From Candidatus Gastranaerophilales bacterium (GTDB taxonomy: Bacteria; Cyanobacteriota; Vampirovibrionia; Gastranaerophilales; Gastranaerophilaceae), in contig CALUUK010000004.1 in assembly GCA_944323955.1 (NCBI GenBank), positions 62,001-126,000 of the forward strand: a stretch of DNA of 64,000 nucleotides. Direction: 5' to 3'. How positions within the stretch are numbered: position 1 is the first letter of the stretch; the number at the start of each line of letters is the position of its first letter. A model generated the notes under the pieces. That model was not told the DNA's origin. It saw only the letters and a program-made list of their open reading frames with translations, and searched no databases. Both the position numbers and the translations under genes were made by a program. This document shows positions 20,685 through 28,716 of the stretch, piece after piece.

Positions 20685-21928
20685 TGAAAGAATTATTTAA
20701 CGATTACGTTCAATCACTTGAAACTTACATAATGATTCAAATAAAAATGGAAACGGCAAAACTGGCGCCTGAGCTTACCGCAAAAGGAAGAGCGCCTATA
20801 TCTCTTGCAATGGGTGCGCCTGTTGAAAGACCGCCTAAATTGGTTACCGATAAATTAATAGAGTATGCAAATACAGACGATATGCATACATATACACTCG
20901 TAAAGGGTGAAAATTATTTGTTGGAAGCCATTGCAAAAAATATGAAAAAACGTACAGATGTTGATTTTGATGCGAAATCTGAAATTTGTGCATTAATCGG
21001 TTCAAAAGAGGGTATTGCAAATTTAATAAGAGCTTTAATTAACCCTAAATCCGAGATGAAAGACAGAGATATTATTTTAATTCCTGACCCGGGGTATGCT
21101 TCTTATAAAGAAATGGTTAAAGTTTCAGGCGGTATGAGCTACGGTATTCCTTTAACTCCCGAAAATAACTATATGCCGGATTTTGAAGAAGTTTTAAACA
21201 ATCTTGAAAAAGACGGATATTCAAAAAATAAAGTTAAGGCATTAATTATTAACTATCCAAATAATCCATTGGGTGCAATTTGTACAAAAGAATATCTCCA
21301 AAAAGTTGTGGATTTTTGTAAAAAACATAAAATTCTTCTTATTTCAGATGCCGCATATATTGATTTAACTTTTGAAGGCTCGCCTAAAGCTCACAGCGTG
21401 TTTGAAATAGAAGGTGCAAAAGATGTTGCTGTTGAATTTTTCAGCTTCTCAAAACCGTATTCAATGACAGGATGGAGAATAGGCTGGGTATGCGGAAATA
21501 AAGACGCTGTCGGCATTTTGGGAAAATTAAAATCAACTATTGATACTGGTATTTATAAACCGATACAAAAAGCTGCTGCTGAAATTTTAAACTCCAAAGA
21601 AGGCGATGATTATATCATAGAGGCAAATAAAAGATTTGAGAGAAAACAAAAAATTATTGTCGAAGGATTTAAAGAACTCGGTTGGCCCATGGATAAATTG
21701 AATCCTCCAAAAGCTACTTTTTATTTGTGGCTTCCTGTTCCGCCAAAATATAAAACATCAAAAGAATTTACGGATGATGTTTTAAGAACTTCGGGAATTG
21801 TACTCGTTCCGGGTAACGGTTTTGGAGAAAACGGCGAAGGCTGGTTCAGAATGTCAATTGTTGCTGCGGAAGAGCAGATGACGGAAGTTATAAGAAGACT
21901 AAAAGAAGACGGTTTTTATTTTGAATAA
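20684..21928 (+). CDS. Class I/II aminotransferase, LL-diaminopimelate aminotransferase-like
   Basis: A 414-residue PLP enzyme. The binding-site features are in place: the Asn/Pro segment INYPNNPLG (~188), ISDAAYIDL (~222, Asp and Tyr for PLP), and FSFSKPYSMTGWRIGW (~251) with the Schiff-base Lys. The C-terminal Arg region GNGFGENGEGWFRMS binds the carboxylate. Length and motifs fit DapL, the single-step route to LL-diaminopimelate used by cyanobacteria and relatives, but other subgroup I-gamma aminotransferases look similar. It overlaps hisH by 8 bases. Confidence 0.7.
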   Translation: MKELFNDYVQSLETYIMIQIKMETAKLAPELTAKGRAPISLAMGAPVERPPKLVTDKLIEYANTDDMHTYTLVKGENYLLEAIAKNMKKRTDVDFDAKSEICALIGSKEGIANLIRALINPKSEMKDRDIILIPDPGYASYKEMVKVSGGMSYGIPLTPENNYMPDFEEVLNNLEKDGYSKNKVKALIINYPNNPLGAICTKEYLQKVVDFCKKHKILLISDAAYIDLTFEGSPKAHSVFEIEGAKDVAVEFFSFSKPYSMTGWRIGWVCGNKDAVGILGKLKSTIDTGIYKPIQKAAAEILNSKEGDDYIIEANKRFERKQKIIVEGFKELGWPMDKLNPPKATFYLWLPVPPKYKTSKEFTDDVLRTSGIVLVPGNGFGENGEGWFRMSIVAAEEQMTEVIRRLKEDGFYFE

Positions 21929-22517
21929 GACGGTAATTGTAGATTATGATGCGGGAAATTTAAGAAGTGTCGCTAATATGATGACATTTCTTAATATCCC
22001 GTTTGAAATAACATCTGATAAAGATAATATTTTGAATGCTCAAAGAATCATTTTCCCGGGGCAGGGACATTTTATGCAGGCAATGAATAACCTTGAAAAA
22101 AAGGGGCTTGTACCGGTAATAAAAGAATGCTGCGAGAAAGGAATTCCTTTCCTTGGAATTTGTATCGGGCTTCAAATTCTTTTTGAAAGAAGTGAAGAAG
22201 CGCCGAATGTAGGCGGTCTTGGTATTTTAAACGGTGAGGTTAAACGTTTTAAACAGGGGAAAATCCCTCAAATCGGCTGGAATAAAGTTATTCCTGCGCC
22301 TGCAAATAAATATATTCCTGAGGATTATTTTTATTATGTTAATTCATACTATGTTGTGCCTGAGGATGAAAATATAATAAGTGCATATACCGATTACAAC
22401 GGCAGATTCTGCGCTGCCGTCCAATCAGGTAATATAACTGCGGTACAATTCCACCCTGAAAAGAGTTCCGAGGCGGGATTGAAGTTCTTTAAAAATTGGT
22501 TTGGTATTAATAATTAG
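21921..22517 (+). CDS. hisH: Imidazole glycerol phosphate synthase glutaminase subunit
   Basis: A 198-residue class I glutamine amidotransferase starting at TTG inside the end of the aminotransferase gene. It has VDYDAGNLRSV at the N-terminus and PGQGHF (~49). FLGICIGLQILFE (~77) carries the nucleophile Cys, and AVQFHPEKSS (~176) carries the catalytic His and Glu. It supplies ammonia to HisF in histidine synthesis; hisF is not nearby. It overlaps the convergent glycosyltransferase gene by 11 bases. Confidence 0.93.
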   Translation: MNKTVIVDYDAGNLRSVANMMTFLNIPFEITSDKDNILNAQRIIFPGQGHFMQAMNNLEKKGLVPVIKECCEKGIPFLGICIGLQILFERSEEAPNVGGLGILNGEVKRFKQGKIPQIGWNKVIPAPANKYIPEDYFYYVNSYYVVPEDENIISAYTDYNGRFCAAVQSGNITAVQFHPEKSSEAGLKFFKNWFGINN

Positions 22518-23526
22518 CTATGTTTTCAAATTTTTTTTCGGGCAATTCTTTTAACTTATTAATAATATAATCTGTATCGGTCTTATGTTCTTGTATGTTT
22601 GTATAAATGGCATTATTTACAAGATTTTTAGGCCCCCATTTTTTTGCAATATCATAGAAAAAGATTGCGACTACCGGTACTTTTAAAGCAAGTGCAAGAT
22701 GCATACATGAAGTATCAATACTAATAAATTTTGAACATAAATCTGTAAGCGCCGCACTCTCTGTATATGAGGTTTTACCTGCGAAATCATAAAACTCAAT
22801 GTCGTTGTACTTATTTAATTTCTTGGTATAATTTTCAATGTCTGATCCGCCTATTATCACAACTTTAAAATCAGGGAAGTTTTTATTTAATGACCTTATA
22901 ATATCTGCCGCATCGTCCGTAATAAGACTCTTTTCTTTAAGATGACAAGCGGGACAAAATCCTATTAGTTTTTTATCTGCAATATTATATTCTCTGAGAA
23001 GTTCTTGAACTTTTTCGGTGTCATTTTTTTTATATTCAAAATAGGTATCAATATTTTCCTGATATATTCCCATCGGTTTTAAACATCTTGCGTAGTGTTC
23101 CGAAACAGGTATTTGCATATTTCTTTCTTCCTGCAAATAAGGTATAATATCCGTCAGCAGAAGCTCTCTTAATTCTCTTCCTCTCCCTATACGTACTTTT
23201 GCTCCTGTTAAGAAAGCGATTATCGCGCTGGTAAGTGAGTTGTCAAGTACTATTATTGTGTCAAATTTATGGCGCATTGATAGACCGAACTTTATTACTC
23301 TAAGTTTCTTTATGAATATTGACTGATTATTTCTATTCATATGGTATACTGTATTAATTTCGGGAATTCCTTTAACTGCGGGTAATGCATTATCTATTGT
23401 GATAATGGAAATAACGGAATCAGGATAGTATTTACGGAGCTGTTTAAATATTCCTGATGTATTTATAACATCTCCAAGCGGGCCTAATATCATAACGGCA
23501 ATTCTGGAGCCGAATTTTTCTTTCAC
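22507..23526 (-). CDS. Glycosyltransferase family 9 (heptosyltransferase-like)
   Basis: A 339-residue GT-B enzyme starting at GTG behind AAAGGAA. It has the GT9 N-terminal motif LGPLGDVINTSGIFKQLRKYYP (~14-35), a Rossmann C-terminal half opening with IGFCPAC (~187), and SFISIDTSCMHLALALKVPVVAIF (~266) that contains the donor-binding Asp/Ser-Met-His motif. The family moves ADP-heptose onto LPS inner core. It implies a Gram-negative-type envelope. Divergent from the GT2 gene, with about 110 bases between. Confidence 0.85.
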   Translation of the reverse strand: MKEKFGSRIAVMILGPLGDVINTSGIFKQLRKYYPDSVISIITIDNALPAVKGIPEINTVYHMNRNNQSIFIKKLRVIKFGLSMRHKFDTIIVLDNSLTSAIIAFLTGAKVRIGRGRELRELLLTDIIPYLQEERNMQIPVSEHYARCLKPMGIYQENIDTYFEYKKNDTEKVQELLREYNIADKKLIGFCPACHLKEKSLITDDAADIIRSLNKNFPDFKVVIIGGSDIENYTKKLNKYNDIEFYDFAGKTSYTESAALTDLCSKFISIDTSCMHLALALKVPVVAIFFYDIAKKWGPKNLVNNAIYTNIQEHKTDTDYIINKLKELPEKKFENIANY

Positions 23527-23624
23527 AATAGGTTCCTTTATTTACTTAATTTATGATATTATAAAAAGAAAACGGAAAGTTGACAATAGACGATAGTGTA
23601 GTTTTAGTTATAGCATTTTGGGTA

Positions 23625-23630
23625 TATAAT
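23625..23630 (+). promoter_or_regulatory. -10 element close to the GT2 start
   Basis: TATAAT ends 9 bases before the ATG of the GT2 gene and no ribosome site lies between. Transcripts starting here would have a leader of a few bases at most. Confidence 0.4.
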
Positions 23631-23639
23631 TGATTTTAT

Positions 23640-24503
23640 ATGACTGAGGTATCAATAATTATTGTTAGTTATAATACGGCTGATATTACACTTGAGTGTA
23701 TTAAATCCGTTTATGAAAAAACTCAAGGCGTTGATTTTGAAGTTATTGTTGTTGATAATAATTCTCAAGACGGCAGTGCCGCAGCAATCGAAGAAGCATT
23801 CCCTCTTGTTAAAGTAATAAAATGCACTGAAAATCTCGGTTTTGGCAGAGCAAATAATCTTGGGATGAAAGACTTAAATTCAAAATATATTCTTTTATTG
23901 AATCCTGATACGGTATTAAAGAATAATGCAGTTAAAATTCTTTTTGATTTTATGCAGGAAAATCCTTCGGCAGGTGCTGCGGGCGGAATGTTATATGATA
24001 TTGAAGGCCGACGAACACATTCTTTCGGAAGATTGCCGTTAATGAAAGATAAGCTGGCTCTTACATTTTTACCTCATATATTCTTAAGTAAAGACATGAG
24101 GAATAAATTTGATTTGGACTCCCTTAACGAAAATAGGGAAACAGGATATATTACTGGTGCTGATTTGATGCTGCGCCGGAGCATTCTTGAAAAAACCGGT
24201 GTATTTGACCCGGATTTCTTTCTGTATTATGAAGAAACTGAATTTCAATTCAGAATTAAAAAGGCCGGATATAAAATATACATTGTGCCCGAGGCTGAGA
24301 TTATTCATCTTGAAGGAAAATCCTTAAATAAAAAATCCAGAAGAGAAGAGTCTTATAAAAGTGAATATTTATATTATAAGAAGTGTTATAAATTAACAAA
24401 GTTTTCATTGTTTAAATTAGCTTTTTTCATATATTTGTTTCCAAGATTTTTTTCTAATCCTAAAATGATTTTGAGAGTGTTAAAATATGTTTTGGGAAAT
24501 TAG
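23640..24503 (+). CDS. Glycosyltransferase family 2 (rhamnosyltransferase-like)
   Basis: A 287-residue inverting glycosyltransferase. The GT-A fold is shown by VSIIIVSYNTADITLECIKSV at the start, VVDNNSQDGS (~40) and LLLNPDTVL (~83, DxD-like metal site). The acceptor region GADLMLRR and FDPDFFLYYEETEFQFRIKKAG lies near residue 195. The C-terminus has a hydrophobic stretch (KLAFFIYLFPRFF) that may dock on the membrane. It probably adds a deoxyhexose or similar sugar to an envelope polymer. The radical SAM gene follows 2 bases after its stop, implying a shared transcript. Confidence 0.87.
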   Translation: MTEVSIIIVSYNTADITLECIKSVYEKTQGVDFEVIVVDNNSQDGSAAAIEEAFPLVKVIKCTENLGFGRANNLGMKDLNSKYILLLNPDTVLKNNAVKILFDFMQENPSAGAAGGMLYDIEGRRTHSFGRLPLMKDKLALTFLPHIFLSKDMRNKFDLDSLNENRETGYITGADLMLRRSILEKTGVFDPDFFLYYEETEFQFRIKKAGYKIYIVPEAEIIHLEGKSLNKKSRREESYKSEYLYYKKCYKLTKFSLFKLAFFIYLFPRFFSNPKMILRVLKYVLGN

Positions 24504-24505
24504 TC

Positions 24506-25549
24506 ATGATAGATAAAATAAAATCATTTTTTAAACGTGAAAAAACAAATACAAAAACAAAATATTTGAGCTGCGAGTATATTCAACACGGGTTTAATGT
24601 TGATTATGAAGATATAAAAATGTGTTGTTTTAACTGCCATGAAGGCGGCGGCAGACAGATATTGATAGATAATTATCATGGTGAAACTATTGACTGGAAT
24701 AAGTTTTTTAAAGAAAAAAGAAAAATGCGTGAATTAAATAAAAAAGGTATTATTTTAGAGCGCTGCAGAGGCTGTTTTTTTCTCAAAGAACGTGAATGGG
24801 ATGACGAAGATTATATAAATTATATGGTTTTTAATCATTGGACGCAGTGTAATTGCAAGTGCAAGTACTGTTTTACTAATGAGCAATCCGACTTTTTCAA
24901 TGCCAGAAAAAATTATAATATGTTCCCGCAAATAGAAAAACTCGTTAAGATGGGAAAAGTAAGAGGCGGAGGTGAAATAGGATTCGGCGGCGGAGAACCT
25001 GCACTTTTGCCGGAGTTTGAACCAATAGTTAATATGCTTTTAGATGCGGGCTGCGATAATATAAGAGTACATTCGTCAGGTGTCAAGTATTCGCAAGCCA
25101 TAGAAAGAGGACTTGCCGAAGGTAAACTGACTCTTGTTGTATCAGTCGATTCGGGCTCGCCCGAAGTTTATGAAAACATAAAAAGAGTCAACCATTTTAA
25201 TAAGGTGTGGGAAAATCTTACCAGGTATGCACAAAGCCAAACTGAAGATAAATATAAAGCCAAAACAAAGTATATAATATATCCGGGTTTTAATGACAAC
25301 AAAGATGAATTTGATAAATTCCTTAATCTTTCTTTAAAATCAGGTATAAAAAGTATGGTTTTGGATGTTGAAGGCGGCTGGTATGAACAAAATAAGTACC
25401 GCGTGCCTGATTATATTTATGAACTTTTGGATTATGCTCTTAAGTGTGCCGAAGATTCGGGTATGAAGAATATTGAAGTTTATGACAGAGCTAATCATAT
25501 GCGCATTCATAGAGATGAATATATAAAACTGAGAGACAATGCAAAATAA
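24506..25549 (+). CDS. Radical SAM protein with N-terminal cysteine-rich region
   Basis: A 347-residue radical SAM protein. The [4Fe-4S]-SAM motif is CNCKCKYC, with the CxxxCxxC cysteines at C115, C119 and C122. GGGEPALLPEF (~165) binds the methionyl carboxylate. Before the barrel lies a ~100-residue region with its own cysteines (C23, MCCFNCHEGGG near 39-50, RCRGC near 88-91), likely an extra Fe-S site arranged like a SPASM domain but at the N-terminus. There is no peptide substrate gene beside it. It is a close paralogue of the radical SAM half of the next gene, which it overlaps by 11 bases. The reaction is unknown. Confidence 0.85.
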   Translation: MIDKIKSFFKREKTNTKTKYLSCEYIQHGFNVDYEDIKMCCFNCHEGGGRQILIDNYHGETIDWNKFFKEKRKMRELNKKGIILERCRGCFFLKEREWDDEDYINYMVFNHWTQCNCKCKYCFTNEQSDFFNARKNYNMFPQIEKLVKMGKVRGGGEIGFGGGEPALLPEFEPIVNMLLDAGCDNIRVHSSGVKYSQAIERGLAEGKLTLVVSVDSGSPEVYENIKRVNHFNKVWENLTRYAQSQTEDKYKAKTKYIIYPGFNDNKDEFDKFLNLSLKSGIKSMVLDVEGGWYEQNKYRVPDYIYELLDYALKCAEDSGMKNIEVYDRANHMRIHRDEYIKLRDNAK

Positions 25550-27818
25550 TCAATACACAAGCTGCGACAGGCTCATAAACGGAATTGATTTTGAGCTCGA
25601 CTGTATAGAACTATGCTGTTTTCGCTGCCATCAGGGGGGCGGAAATATAGAAATTGCGCGGGTCATTGACGGTAAGATTGATATTGATGTATTGGAAAAA
25701 AATCGGCAGGAGTTGATAGAGGCATGTAAAAACGGTAATGTTAATCCAAAATGTGAAGGGTGCTTTAATCTTGAGAAAAAATTCTGGGACGAAAAGCCTA
25801 AAATAAAATATATTCATTTTAACCATTGGACGATGTGTAATACAAATTGTATATACTGTTACACTAAATCCGACAAAAAATATGAAGGCGGAGTTCAGCA
25901 TTATAAAGCATTGCCATTATTGAAAGAAATTTTAAACCGTTTTGAATTTTCACCTGACGGAGAAATTACCTTTGCGGGCGGTGAGCCTTTACTTTTGGCG
26001 GAGTTTGACGAAATTATCGAATATTTGCTTGAAATCGGAGCAAAGAAAATAATTGTTCATACCTCGGGTGTTTTATACTCACAATCCCTGGCAAAGGCTG
26101 TATCCTCGGGCTGCGCAAGAGTTGTTATTTCTCATGACTCCGGCAGTGAAGAGACTTATAAACGTATAAAAAATACCGATTTTTGCCATAAAGTCTGGCA
26201 AAATACACATAATTATGCAAAATCGGAATGTAATAATGTTTTTTCGAAATATGTAATTATACCCGGTATTAATGACAGCAGAAAAGAAATTGAAACATGG
26301 CTTAAAAAATCTGCAGATTCCGGTGTAAAAACGGTTATTCTTGATGTTGAACATAAATGGTATGAGAAAAATAAGAGTAATTTAAAACAATCATTAAGAT
26401 TGCTTTCTTTGTGTGAATATGTTTCTTCCCGTGCAGAAATATATAATTTAAACGTCGAATTTTATAACGCCGTCAGATATTTGTATGCGGAATATAAAAA
26501 ATATCTTCCGTTTATAAAATATAAAAATTACTTTTCCGCTCTGTTGACACTTGCTCTGCCAATTATGGCGGGAAGTATCGGTCATACAATAATAGGTGCG
26601 ACCGATATTTTGGTTGTTGCTAAGTATAATATAAATTCACTTGCCGCGATAAGTATTGCGAATGCTTTTTTATTTACCATATTTATTTTCGGGATAGGCT
26701 TACAAGATGCAATATCCATAATTCTATCCAATAAACGAGGTAAAAAAGAAGGAATTAAAAAATATTTAAATACAACATTAATATTTTCATTAATTTTGGC
26801 TGTTTTGTTTTCGTCAGTTTGTTATGCAATGACATATATAATTGACAGATTTTCGTTTGACCCTGAATTAATTCCTTATATTAAACAATATACACGAATT
26901 GTGGCTTTTTCAATGTTCGGTGTTTTTATATATCAAGGAATAAAGCAGTTTTTACAATCATATGAAATAGTTAATTTCCCGAATTTACTTATACTTATTG
27001 CTGCATTATTAAATCTGGTTTTTGATGTTGTCTTTGTGTTTGGCTTTAAAGATATTATTCCCGCCATGGGGGTAAAAGGTGCTGCGCTTGCAACTTTTGG
27101 TGTTCGAACATTTATGGGGCTTGTTATGCTGATTTACGTTATGAGATTTATAAAGATTACAGATAAAATTGATTTTTCTTTAATGAAGCAGATAATAAGA
27201 TTTGGAACTCCTCTCGGAATTACATTGTTAATTGAATTTTTGGCATTTAATATAATAACCGTTCTTGTCGGGAAAGAAGCGGGTATTTTAGCGGCTACCC
27301 ACAATATTCTTTTAACAATATCATCAGTAACGTTTAATGTTCCGTTGGCAATAGCCGTTGCCGTTGCCGTAAAAGTTGCATATCATTACGGCGCGAAAAA
27401 TTATGATGAAATAAGAAAGTATTCATATACGGGAGTTTTTATGGGTGTGTCATTTATGGCGCTTTGTGCCGTGATTCTTGCGTTATTTCCCCGTCAACTG
27501 GTCGGAATATTTACAAAAGACACAGCTGTTATGGATATAGCTATGCCTATAGTATTAATTGCGGCAATGTATCAAATTTTTGACGGGTTTCAGGTTGTTA
27601 TGGGCGGAGTGCTAAAAGGTTTCAAGATGACAAAAGTTGTTTCTTTGTGCGTTTTTTCGGGCTATTGGCTTGTTGGACTGCCTGTTGCATATTTCCTTGT
27701 TTTCAAATACGGTATGTCTTTAAAGGGATATTGGATAGCACTTGCCGTATCTCTATGTGCTATAGGTGTTTTTGATGCTGTTATTGCAAAATATAAGTTT
27801 AAAAAAATAAAATCATGA
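25539..27818 (+). CDS. Fusion: radical SAM enzyme joined to a MATE-family transporter
   Basis: One uninterrupted 759-residue frame. Residues 1-~315 form a radical SAM domain with a cysteine-rich N-terminus (CIELCCFRCHQGGG, CEGC), the motif CNTNCIYC (C100, C104, C107) and AGGEPLLLAEF (~147). From about residue 330 the sequence becomes a complete 12-helix MATE exporter, beginning FSALLTLALPIMAGSIGHT. The usual repeat halves are visible (second half from FGTPLGITLLIEF), and it ends in a Lys-rich tail. MATE proteins export organic compounds or lipid-linked material using H+ or Na+. Joining a catalyst to its exporter suggests coupled synthesis and export. An assembly or sequencing artefact that removed a stop remains possible. 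Confidence 0.85.
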   Translation: MQNNQYTSCDRLINGIDFELDCIELCCFRCHQGGGNIEIARVIDGKIDIDVLEKNRQELIEACKNGNVNPKCEGCFNLEKKFWDEKPKIKYIHFNHWTMCNTNCIYCYTKSDKKYEGGVQHYKALPLLKEILNRFEFSPDGEITFAGGEPLLLAEFDEIIEYLLEIGAKKIIVHTSGVLYSQSLAKAVSSGCARVVISHDSGSEETYKRIKNTDFCHKVWQNTHNYAKSECNNVFSKYVIIPGINDSRKEIETWLKKSADSGVKTVILDVEHKWYEKNKSNLKQSLRLLSLCEYVSSRAEIYNLNVEFYNAVRYLYAEYKKYLPFIKYKNYFSALLTLALPIMAGSIGHTIIGATDILVVAKYNINSLAAISIANAFLFTIFIFGIGLQDAISIILSNKRGKKEGIKKYLNTTLIFSLILAVLFSSVCYAMTYIIDRFSFDPELIPYIKQYTRIVAFSMFGVFIYQGIKQFLQSYEIVNFPNLLILIAALLNLVFDVVFVFGFKDIIPAMGVKGAALATFGVRTFMGLVMLIYVMRFIKITDKIDFSLMKQIIRFGTPLGITLLIEFLAFNIITVLVGKEAGILAATHNILLTISSVTFNVPLAIAVAVAVKVAYHYGAKNYDEIRKYSYTGVFMGVSFMALCAVILALFPRQLVGIFTKDTAVMDIAMPIVLIAAMYQIFDGFQVVMGGVLKGFKMTKVVSLCVFSGYWLVGLPVAYFLVFKYGMSLKGYWIALAVSLCAIGVFDAVIAKYKFKKIKS

Positions 27819-27990
27819 ACCCTTGTTTATTCTGATAACCAGGATTAATATTAATTTCTTTATTCAATAATTCTTTAATTTTCATATATAAAAGTATAAC
27901 ATATATTAATTATATTTATTTATTACTATACATGCCCGCATAAATTAATATATAATAGTTTGAGTATATATAGACAGTAAACGGGTTAAT

Positions 27991-28716
27991 ATGGCGGATA
28001 ATTTAAAGTATAAAAGAATTTTATTAAAGCTCTCGGGTGAAGCATTGCTGGGTTCTCAAGAATTCGGTATTGATCATAATCCTTTAGAGATGATTGCAAA
28101 TGAAGTTAAAGAGGCCTATGAACTGGGTGCACAAATAGCAATTGTAGTCGGCGGCGGAAATATATTCAGAGGTGTTAAAAACTCGGCGACATACGGTATG
28201 GATCAGGCAACAGGCGATTATATAGGAATGCTTGCAACGGTTATGAATGCATTGGCGTTGCAAAGCGCGTTAAGAAAACTTGATGTCCATTGCCGCGTCC
28301 AATCGGCAATAGATATGGATAAAATCGCCGAACCTTATATAAGATTTAAAGCAATAAGACATCTTGAAAAATCAAGAGTTGTTATATTTGCGGCCGGAAC
28401 AGGTAATCCTTTCTTCACAACGGATACCGCGGCAGCTTTAAGAGCTTCCGAAATAGGTGCGGAAGCTATGTTGATGGCAAAAAATGGCGTGGACGGCATA
28501 TATTCGGATGATCCGAGAACAAATTCGAACGCAAAAAAATATAGTAATATTACTTACGACGATATAATTATTAAGGGTCTTAAGGTTATGGATACCGCTT
28601 CTTGTGCGCTTTGCAAACAAAATTCCATACCCATTGTGGTATTTGATTTTGCCGCAAAGGGCAGTATCTGTCAAATATTAAAAGGTGATAATATAGGAAC
28701 ATATGTAGGAGGTTAA
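27991..28716 (+). CDS. pyrH: Uridylate kinase
   Basis: A 241-residue hexameric UMP kinase of the amino acid kinase fold. Visible are the Lys/Gly phosphate loop RILLKLSGEALLG, VVGGGNIFRG (~53), the UMP-binding DYIGMLATVMNALAL (~78) and FAAGTGNPFFTTDTAAALRA (~135). It makes UDP for nucleic acids and envelope precursors. It heads the widely conserved cluster pyrH-frr-cdsA. frr starts 1 base after its stop. An AT-rich 172-base gap with several TATA-like boxes precedes it. Confidence 0.96.
   Translation: MADNLKYKRILLKLSGEALLGSQEFGIDHNPLEMIANEVKEAYELGAQIAIVVGGGNIFRGVKNSATYGMDQATGDYIGMLATVMNALALQSALRKLDVHCRVQSAIDMDKIAEPYIRFKAIRHLEKSRVVIFAAGTGNPFFTTDTAAALRASEIGAEAMLMAKNGVDGIYSDDPRTNSNAKKYSNITYDDIIIKGLKVMDTASCALCKQNSIPIVVFDFAAKGSICQILKGDNIGTYVGG

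Follow-up and report, generated by a model that had tools for sequence, protein, structure and literature searches.

Biosynthetic enzymes and the pumps that carry their products out of the cell are normally distinct polypeptides, and for most MATE pumps and most radical SAM (rSAM) enzymes the substrates are unknown. In the 64,000-nucleotide stretch of a Candidatus Gastranaerophilales genome analysed here (the window), the two kinds of protein meet in a single gene at positions 25539-27818 of the + strand. This locus raises the questions of whether the two halves truly form one protein, how they came to be joined and what the joined protein could do.

An enzyme half and a transporter half in one frame

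The gene consists of one uninterrupted frame of 759 codons that begins with ATG and contains no internal stops. Residues 1-328 correspond to an rSAM enzyme and residues 329-758 to a complete 12-helix NorM-like MATE transporter, an architecture supported by the ORF reading, by Pfam and NCBIfam profiles and by full-length relatives in seven congeneric species. The first-pass annotation had described the frame in the same way, and the ORF, the Pfam matches, the NCBIfam profile TIGR00797 and the 12-helix model all agreed with its residue numbers, which were correct.

In the enzyme half, Pfam placed Radical_SAM (PF04055) at residues 95-251 (25821..26291, +; E 9e-21), and this core carries the CxxxCxxC motif C100/C104/C107 (25836..25859, +). 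The core is preceded by a cysteine domain at residues 9-75 (25563..25763, +), which was recognised by the conservation of its cysteines; no Pfam family, SPASM included, matched this N-terminal stretch. The AlphaFold2 model of the enzyme half (pLDDT 93, pTM 0.90) matched many rSAM structures in Foldseek and VIA comparisons as a partial TIM-barrel, and its nearest solved structures were SuiB, Mmp10, SkfB and PFL-AE (PFL-activase), with VIA-align Z values of 15-16. By motif and predicted fold, the fused N-terminal half is a member of the radical SAM superfamily. It shares with these four enzymes the predicted core fold, CxxxCxxC and the SAM-binding GGE (G147-G148-E149), but differs from them in that its extra cysteines are N-terminal, identity is 13-19%, the protein is joined to a transporter and no precursor peptide was found nearby. 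The structural neighbours hint at a peptide or protein as the class of substrate. Membership of the prokaryotic viperins (pVip, NF038283) was rejected. The rSAM core resembles them with 56.9 bits, against a curated cut-off of 180, and with a PADLOC E value of 2e-18, but the match to the fusion spans only about 125 residues and no nucleotide kinase was seen beside the gene.

The MATE half (26523..27812, +) was recognised by Pfam as MatE in two stretches (E 1e-47), and residues 341-732 scored 229 bits with TIGR00797 matE, above the curated cut-off of 147.4. The half aligned end to end with NorM-VC, its best match (E 4e-41), and D356, E566 and D682 fell on the acidic positions of TM1, TM7 and TM10 of that pump. 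We take these positions to be D36, E255 and D371 of NorM-VC and the acidic positions of NorM helices 1, 7 and 10 to be the cation-coupling residues. The three residues were invariant in the fused proteins and also among 13 fused or stand-alone relatives. On the basis of the profile, the two MatE repeats and the twelve predicted transmembrane helices, the C-terminal half belongs to the MATE family. It was rejected as a NorM equivalog (NF000263), since it scored 108.2 bits against a curated cut-off of 950. The fusion resembles the stand-alone NorM-type pumps (NorM-VC 3mkt/9rsj; TIGR00797) in its 12 helices and three aligned acidic positions, and differs from them in carrying a 328-residue rSAM enzyme at the N-terminus.

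AlphaFold2 modelled the whole fusion with a pLDDT of 92.9 and a pTM of 0.73, and placed twelve long helices across residues 329-758. At the joint (26469..26522, +), the predicted helix 311-327 is near-continuous with the first transmembrane helix. The loop charges of the MATE half obey the positive-inside rule when the N-terminus is cytosolic, from which we infer that the enzyme half is located in the cytosol, the required workplace of a SAM-dependent Fe-S enzyme.

Conservation, gene order and origin of the fusion

Of the 41 species searched in one genus of Candidatus Gastranaerophilales, 8 carried the same full-length fusion (758-782 aa), with 61-69% identity to the window protein, and the samples of the carriers include goat colon and rabbit ('Lapin'). 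In all eight fused proteins, C100, C104 and C107 were unchanged together with C9, C26, C27, C30, C72 and C75, and the GGE and all MATE motifs were invariant. When the in-frame starts were compared, no start codon at the joint was common to the eight fusions, and in one of them the whole stretch of residues 295-350 lacked a start. Outside the genus, no fusion appeared among the listed matches in samples of 288 family and 241 order genomes. The source genomes are metagenome assemblies, in which an assembly or sequencing artefact might have joined two genes; however, eight separate assemblies carry the conserved fusion at 61-69% identity and with an identical joint, and for this reason we consider an artefact refuted, its probability being vanishingly small. 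The first-pass annotation had named a stop or frame break at the joint as an observation that would speak against the fusion. The frame is open there and the fusion is conserved in eight species, so that it can be taken as real.

The gene directly upstream encodes rSAM A (24506..25549, +; 347 aa; recognised by Pfam), a separate, unfused paralogue whose frame overlaps the start of the fusion by 11 nt. In 35 of the 41 genus genomes, A lies directly upstream of either the fusion gene (8 genomes) or a separate MATE gene (27 genomes). The other objection foreseen in the first-pass annotation, halves that are always separate genes in related genomes, does not hold either. The frame of A overlaps the following MATE or fusion frame by 8-92 nt in all 35 genomes, in one of which A is interrupted by a contig end. 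In most genus genomes, this slot has an aminotransferase/HisH-like pair on one side and pyrH-frr on the other. In the window, the upstream flank is a HisH-like glutamine amidotransferase (21921..22517, +; Pfam GATase; the same flank occurs at loci L057, L063, L095 and L096) and the downstream flank is pyrH, of the amino acid kinase family (27991..28716, +; Pfam AA_kinase), which comes after the MATE or fusion gene in most genomes of the genus. Positions 22507-24503 of the window hold GT9 and GT2 glycosyltransferase genes that separate the HisH-like gene from A, and at loci such as L063 and L057 HisH is immediately upstream of A. Four genus genomes (G017, G025, G033 and G034) gave no matches to the rSAM family at E 1e-30; MATE is present in them without A or any other rSAM neighbour, in G033 in the same slot. 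In two incomplete genus genomes (G004 and G008), MATE was absent among the matches listed.

A tree of 128 rSAM proteins, together with a smaller careful tree, resolved A, X and B with good support as three orthologous rSAM types that genera have in common. In four genomes of genus g19, A, X, B and MATE are four separate, nearly contiguous genes in different surroundings, and the A/B-MATE association is kept in two chromosomal settings in two genera. An 835-codon open frame in one genome (G058) was considered as a second fusion in g19 and rejected, the two genes being separate. The genome of genus g13 (G052) has A before pyrH, an X-B pair elsewhere and MATE at another place; the idea that MATE always accompanies the rSAM family was rejected on this ground. 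MATE was solitary at the seven loci checked in other genera and, in the genome of the window, none of the remaining rSAM family members was seen adjoining a MATE gene.

The fused rSAM halves formed one clade (100/100) within type B, beside the stand-alone B of the genus and the B of g19, and tests did not separate which of these two is nearer (p-AU 0.45-0.49). When the fused MATE halves were constrained to one clade, the likelihood improved by 15 units (p-AU 0.83). Because the rSAM halves are monophyletic and the MATE halves gain in likelihood, the fusion looks like one event with a single origin. Type B is thereby present in a second copy, the fused enzyme half, which evolves faster. A recent tandem duplication of A was rejected as its source, since in the trees this half falls among the B sequences and not with A. 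The local genes pyrH, frr, hisH and A divide the fused species into four pairs, which makes it likely that the fusion was later lost in some lineages or spread laterally; rpoB was too conserved to give a species tree that would decide between loss and lateral transfer. A mobile origin was rejected on searches of phages, viral contigs and plasmids: no relatives of A were found in the phages and none of A or the fusion in the viral contigs, and the plasmids yielded matches to the MATE half only (25-29%) among the matches listed.

A joining of this kind could have been incidental, B having stood beside MATE in an operon of the A-X-B-MATE type until its stop was lost, with the halves still working alone and the tether doing little. 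Consistent with this, B of g19 directly precedes a MATE gene of its own frame, the two being separated by short gaps or overlapping, and the clade of fused B halves may have arisen from a g19-type B-MATE pair or from a stand-alone B copy. The rSAM family also fuses readily, as shown by rSAM-rSAM double proteins in two species of g19. Yet the fusion has been retained in eight species despite large divergence, with a joint that lacks a start common to all, and we regard an incidental joining as rather unlikely.

Possible function of the fused protein

Selection on the two halves was estimated in two close species pairs by the Nei-Gojobori method, the ratios being computed from dN and dS. The dN/dS values were about 0.17 and 0.25 in the rSAM half of the fusion; the MATE half gave 0.06 and 0.11, and the neighbouring rSAM A 0.06 and 0.09. 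Purifying selection acts on both halves, with the enzyme half under the weaker constraint, and the fused rSAM half evolved faster than A or stand-alone B.

We give an about even chance to the reading that the protein is a bifunctional enzyme-exporter, in which a cytosolic rSAM reaction would be tethered to the export of its product. A [4Fe-4S] cluster on C100/C104/C107 would cleave SAM and generate a radical. C9, C26, C72 and C75 probably ligate a second [4Fe-4S] cluster comparable to the auxiliary one of SPASM/twitch enzymes, a proposal made because these four well-spaced extra cysteines are conserved. The enzyme half, of type B, would act on a short peptide or a small molecule, and enzyme A, which is translated along with it, would probably take part in this modification. 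The product would exit via the MATE channel tethered to B, the C-terminal half acting as a putative cation-coupled antiporter of the NorM type. No precursor-peptide gene was recognised beside the operon, in which the frames of A and MATE overlap wherever A occurs in the genus, and hence we assume that the precursor would be encoded at a distance or that the substrate would not be a peptide. Only four short frames were seen at 27700-28010. No other biosynthetic partner was found in the operon, and the flanking genes are housekeeping genes.

The first-pass annotation had proposed a single polypeptide that both makes its product and exports it, and this part of the proposal fits the overlapping operon in two genera, the apparent single origin of the fusion, the purifying selection on both halves and the predicted cytosolic placement of the enzyme. 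The congeners that are free of the rSAM family and carry MATE without A also count in its favour. Against it count the lack of a precursor in the operon, the family members that occur elsewhere without MATE, the separate location of MATE in g13, the faster evolution of the fused rSAM half and the fact that NorM-type pumps are usually multidrug pumps. The second part of the proposal, that the enzyme modifies a substrate as it leaves the cell, is less likely, because the loop charges place the enzyme in the cytosol.

The pump could instead serve detoxification, with the enzyme half altering a xenobiotic or toxic metabolite that the MATE half then expels and with no natural product made. The NorM-like nature of the MATE half (108 bits to the NCBIfam NorM model, far below its cut-off of 950) and the animal gut setting of the relatives would suit such a role. 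However, the enzymes structurally nearest to the enzyme half mostly have peptides or proteins as substrates, and MATE has long existed in the order but became joined to rSAM in rSAM-rich genera only, so that we judge detoxification unlikely. We see little chance that the rSAM half has no product of its own and instead regulates the transporter half or brings about its chemical maturation, or acts as a sensor of the iron, redox or SAM state of the cell. The near-continuous helix leading from residue 311 into TM1 could transmit a conformational change and the enzyme half has evolved faster than A, but its catalytic motifs are all invariant, also in paralogues without a transporter, and 27 congeners and all other genera manage without a fused half.

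Pairing of modifying enzymes with MATE pumps has precedents. Methanobactin operons include the MATE exporter MbnM and encode peptide-modifying enzymes beside this pump (PMC3621798). Similarly, the tryglysin-associated MATE WgkD (NCBIfam NF052396) is encoded with peptide-modifying enzymes. In both systems the enzyme and the pump are separate proteins, whereas the fusion unites them in one. The methanobactin maturases MbnB/C are not rSAM enzymes. No description of an rSAM-MATE fusion was found in the papers searched, which cover the literature in part, domain-architecture tables lying outside their scope. The enzyme superfamily, the transporter family and the kind of partnership are known; a covalent joining of the two was not found described in those papers. 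Returning to the bifunctional enzyme-exporter, the persistence of the fusion in eight species suggests that the enzyme product passes straight to the pump. Because its rSAM and MATE halves are covalently linked and unfused relatives exist in nature, this protein offers a case in which the product of one half would identify the cargo of the other.

The radical SAM family of the fused half

The rSAM family to which the fused half belongs counts 42 paralogues in the 1.96-Mb genome of the window (loci L064-L085; contigs C1, C2, C3, C5, C7, C8, C9, C11, C12 and C13 of G000). Together they take up about 43 kb, a share of 2.2%, and lie mostly scattered among housekeeping genes; their median pairwise identity is 28%, and all 42 retain the four N-terminal cysteines and CxxxCxxC. 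Among the 43 rSAM proteins collected from this genome, CxxxCxxC was present in all, and residues C9, C26, C72 and C75 were aligned in 42 and invariant in one alignment (A5). In a sample of the phylum, matches with E below 1e-100 were confined to this genus, and a few other genera gave matches of E 1e-32 to 1e-44. With a broader profile, 18-36 copies of the family were counted in g19 genomes and 10 in g13. These numbers indicate a large rSAM expansion in the Gastranaerophilales, non-photosynthetic gut relatives of cyanobacteria, and no description of it was found in the papers searched, with their partial coverage. Forty-two paralogues in a 1.96-Mb genome are arguably a bigger surprise than the fusion. 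It is a speculative and rather improbable extension that the fusion forms the exporting terminus of an rSAM system peculiar to this clade, in which dozens of diverged enzymes (42 here, with A, X and B as the core) would make modified peptides or metabolites for one dedicated MATE, one enzyme being covalently tied to it in eight species and the product channelled from the radical site to the exporter.

Four other rSAM proteins of the same genome adjoin members of the 42-copy family (L070:4512-9622 and L081:2141-3178, on contigs C9 and C13 of G000), and at least one of them has Pfam SPASM at the N-terminus instead of the C-terminus. These SPASM-first proteins (L070 4512, 7557 and 8609; L081 2141) resemble the fusion family in a homologous core and in the N-terminal placement of a cysteine domain. 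They differ in that the one tested has an N-terminal Pfam SPASM, whereas the N-terminus of the fusion family is unrecognised by Pfam and unaligned by hhalign, which aligned the core alone (95%, columns 88-272) and left out the N-terminal domain.

Further arrangements of the family were observed. A conserved rSAM triple, X-B-C, occurs in every one of the 14 rSAM-rich genomes examined in the genus (L065:2242-5205, L086-L094, L097-L100), and X and C of this triple have changed residues following the N-terminal cysteine pair. In genus g19, two genes on the minus strand (L156:1479-3413 in G119 and L157:1337-3268 in G162) encode proteins of 643-644 aa, each with two complete tandem copies of the rSAM family, and adjoin a gene for an ABC-transporter-like ATPase. 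Finally, a 632-aa protein encoded on the minus strand of another genome (L106:760-2658, G085) is a further multi-domain rSAM of this bacterial family; it combines an N-terminal part without assignment, an rSAM core and a hexapeptide-repeat acyltransferase stretch, and its gene adjoins a PGA_cap (CapA-type) capsule gene.
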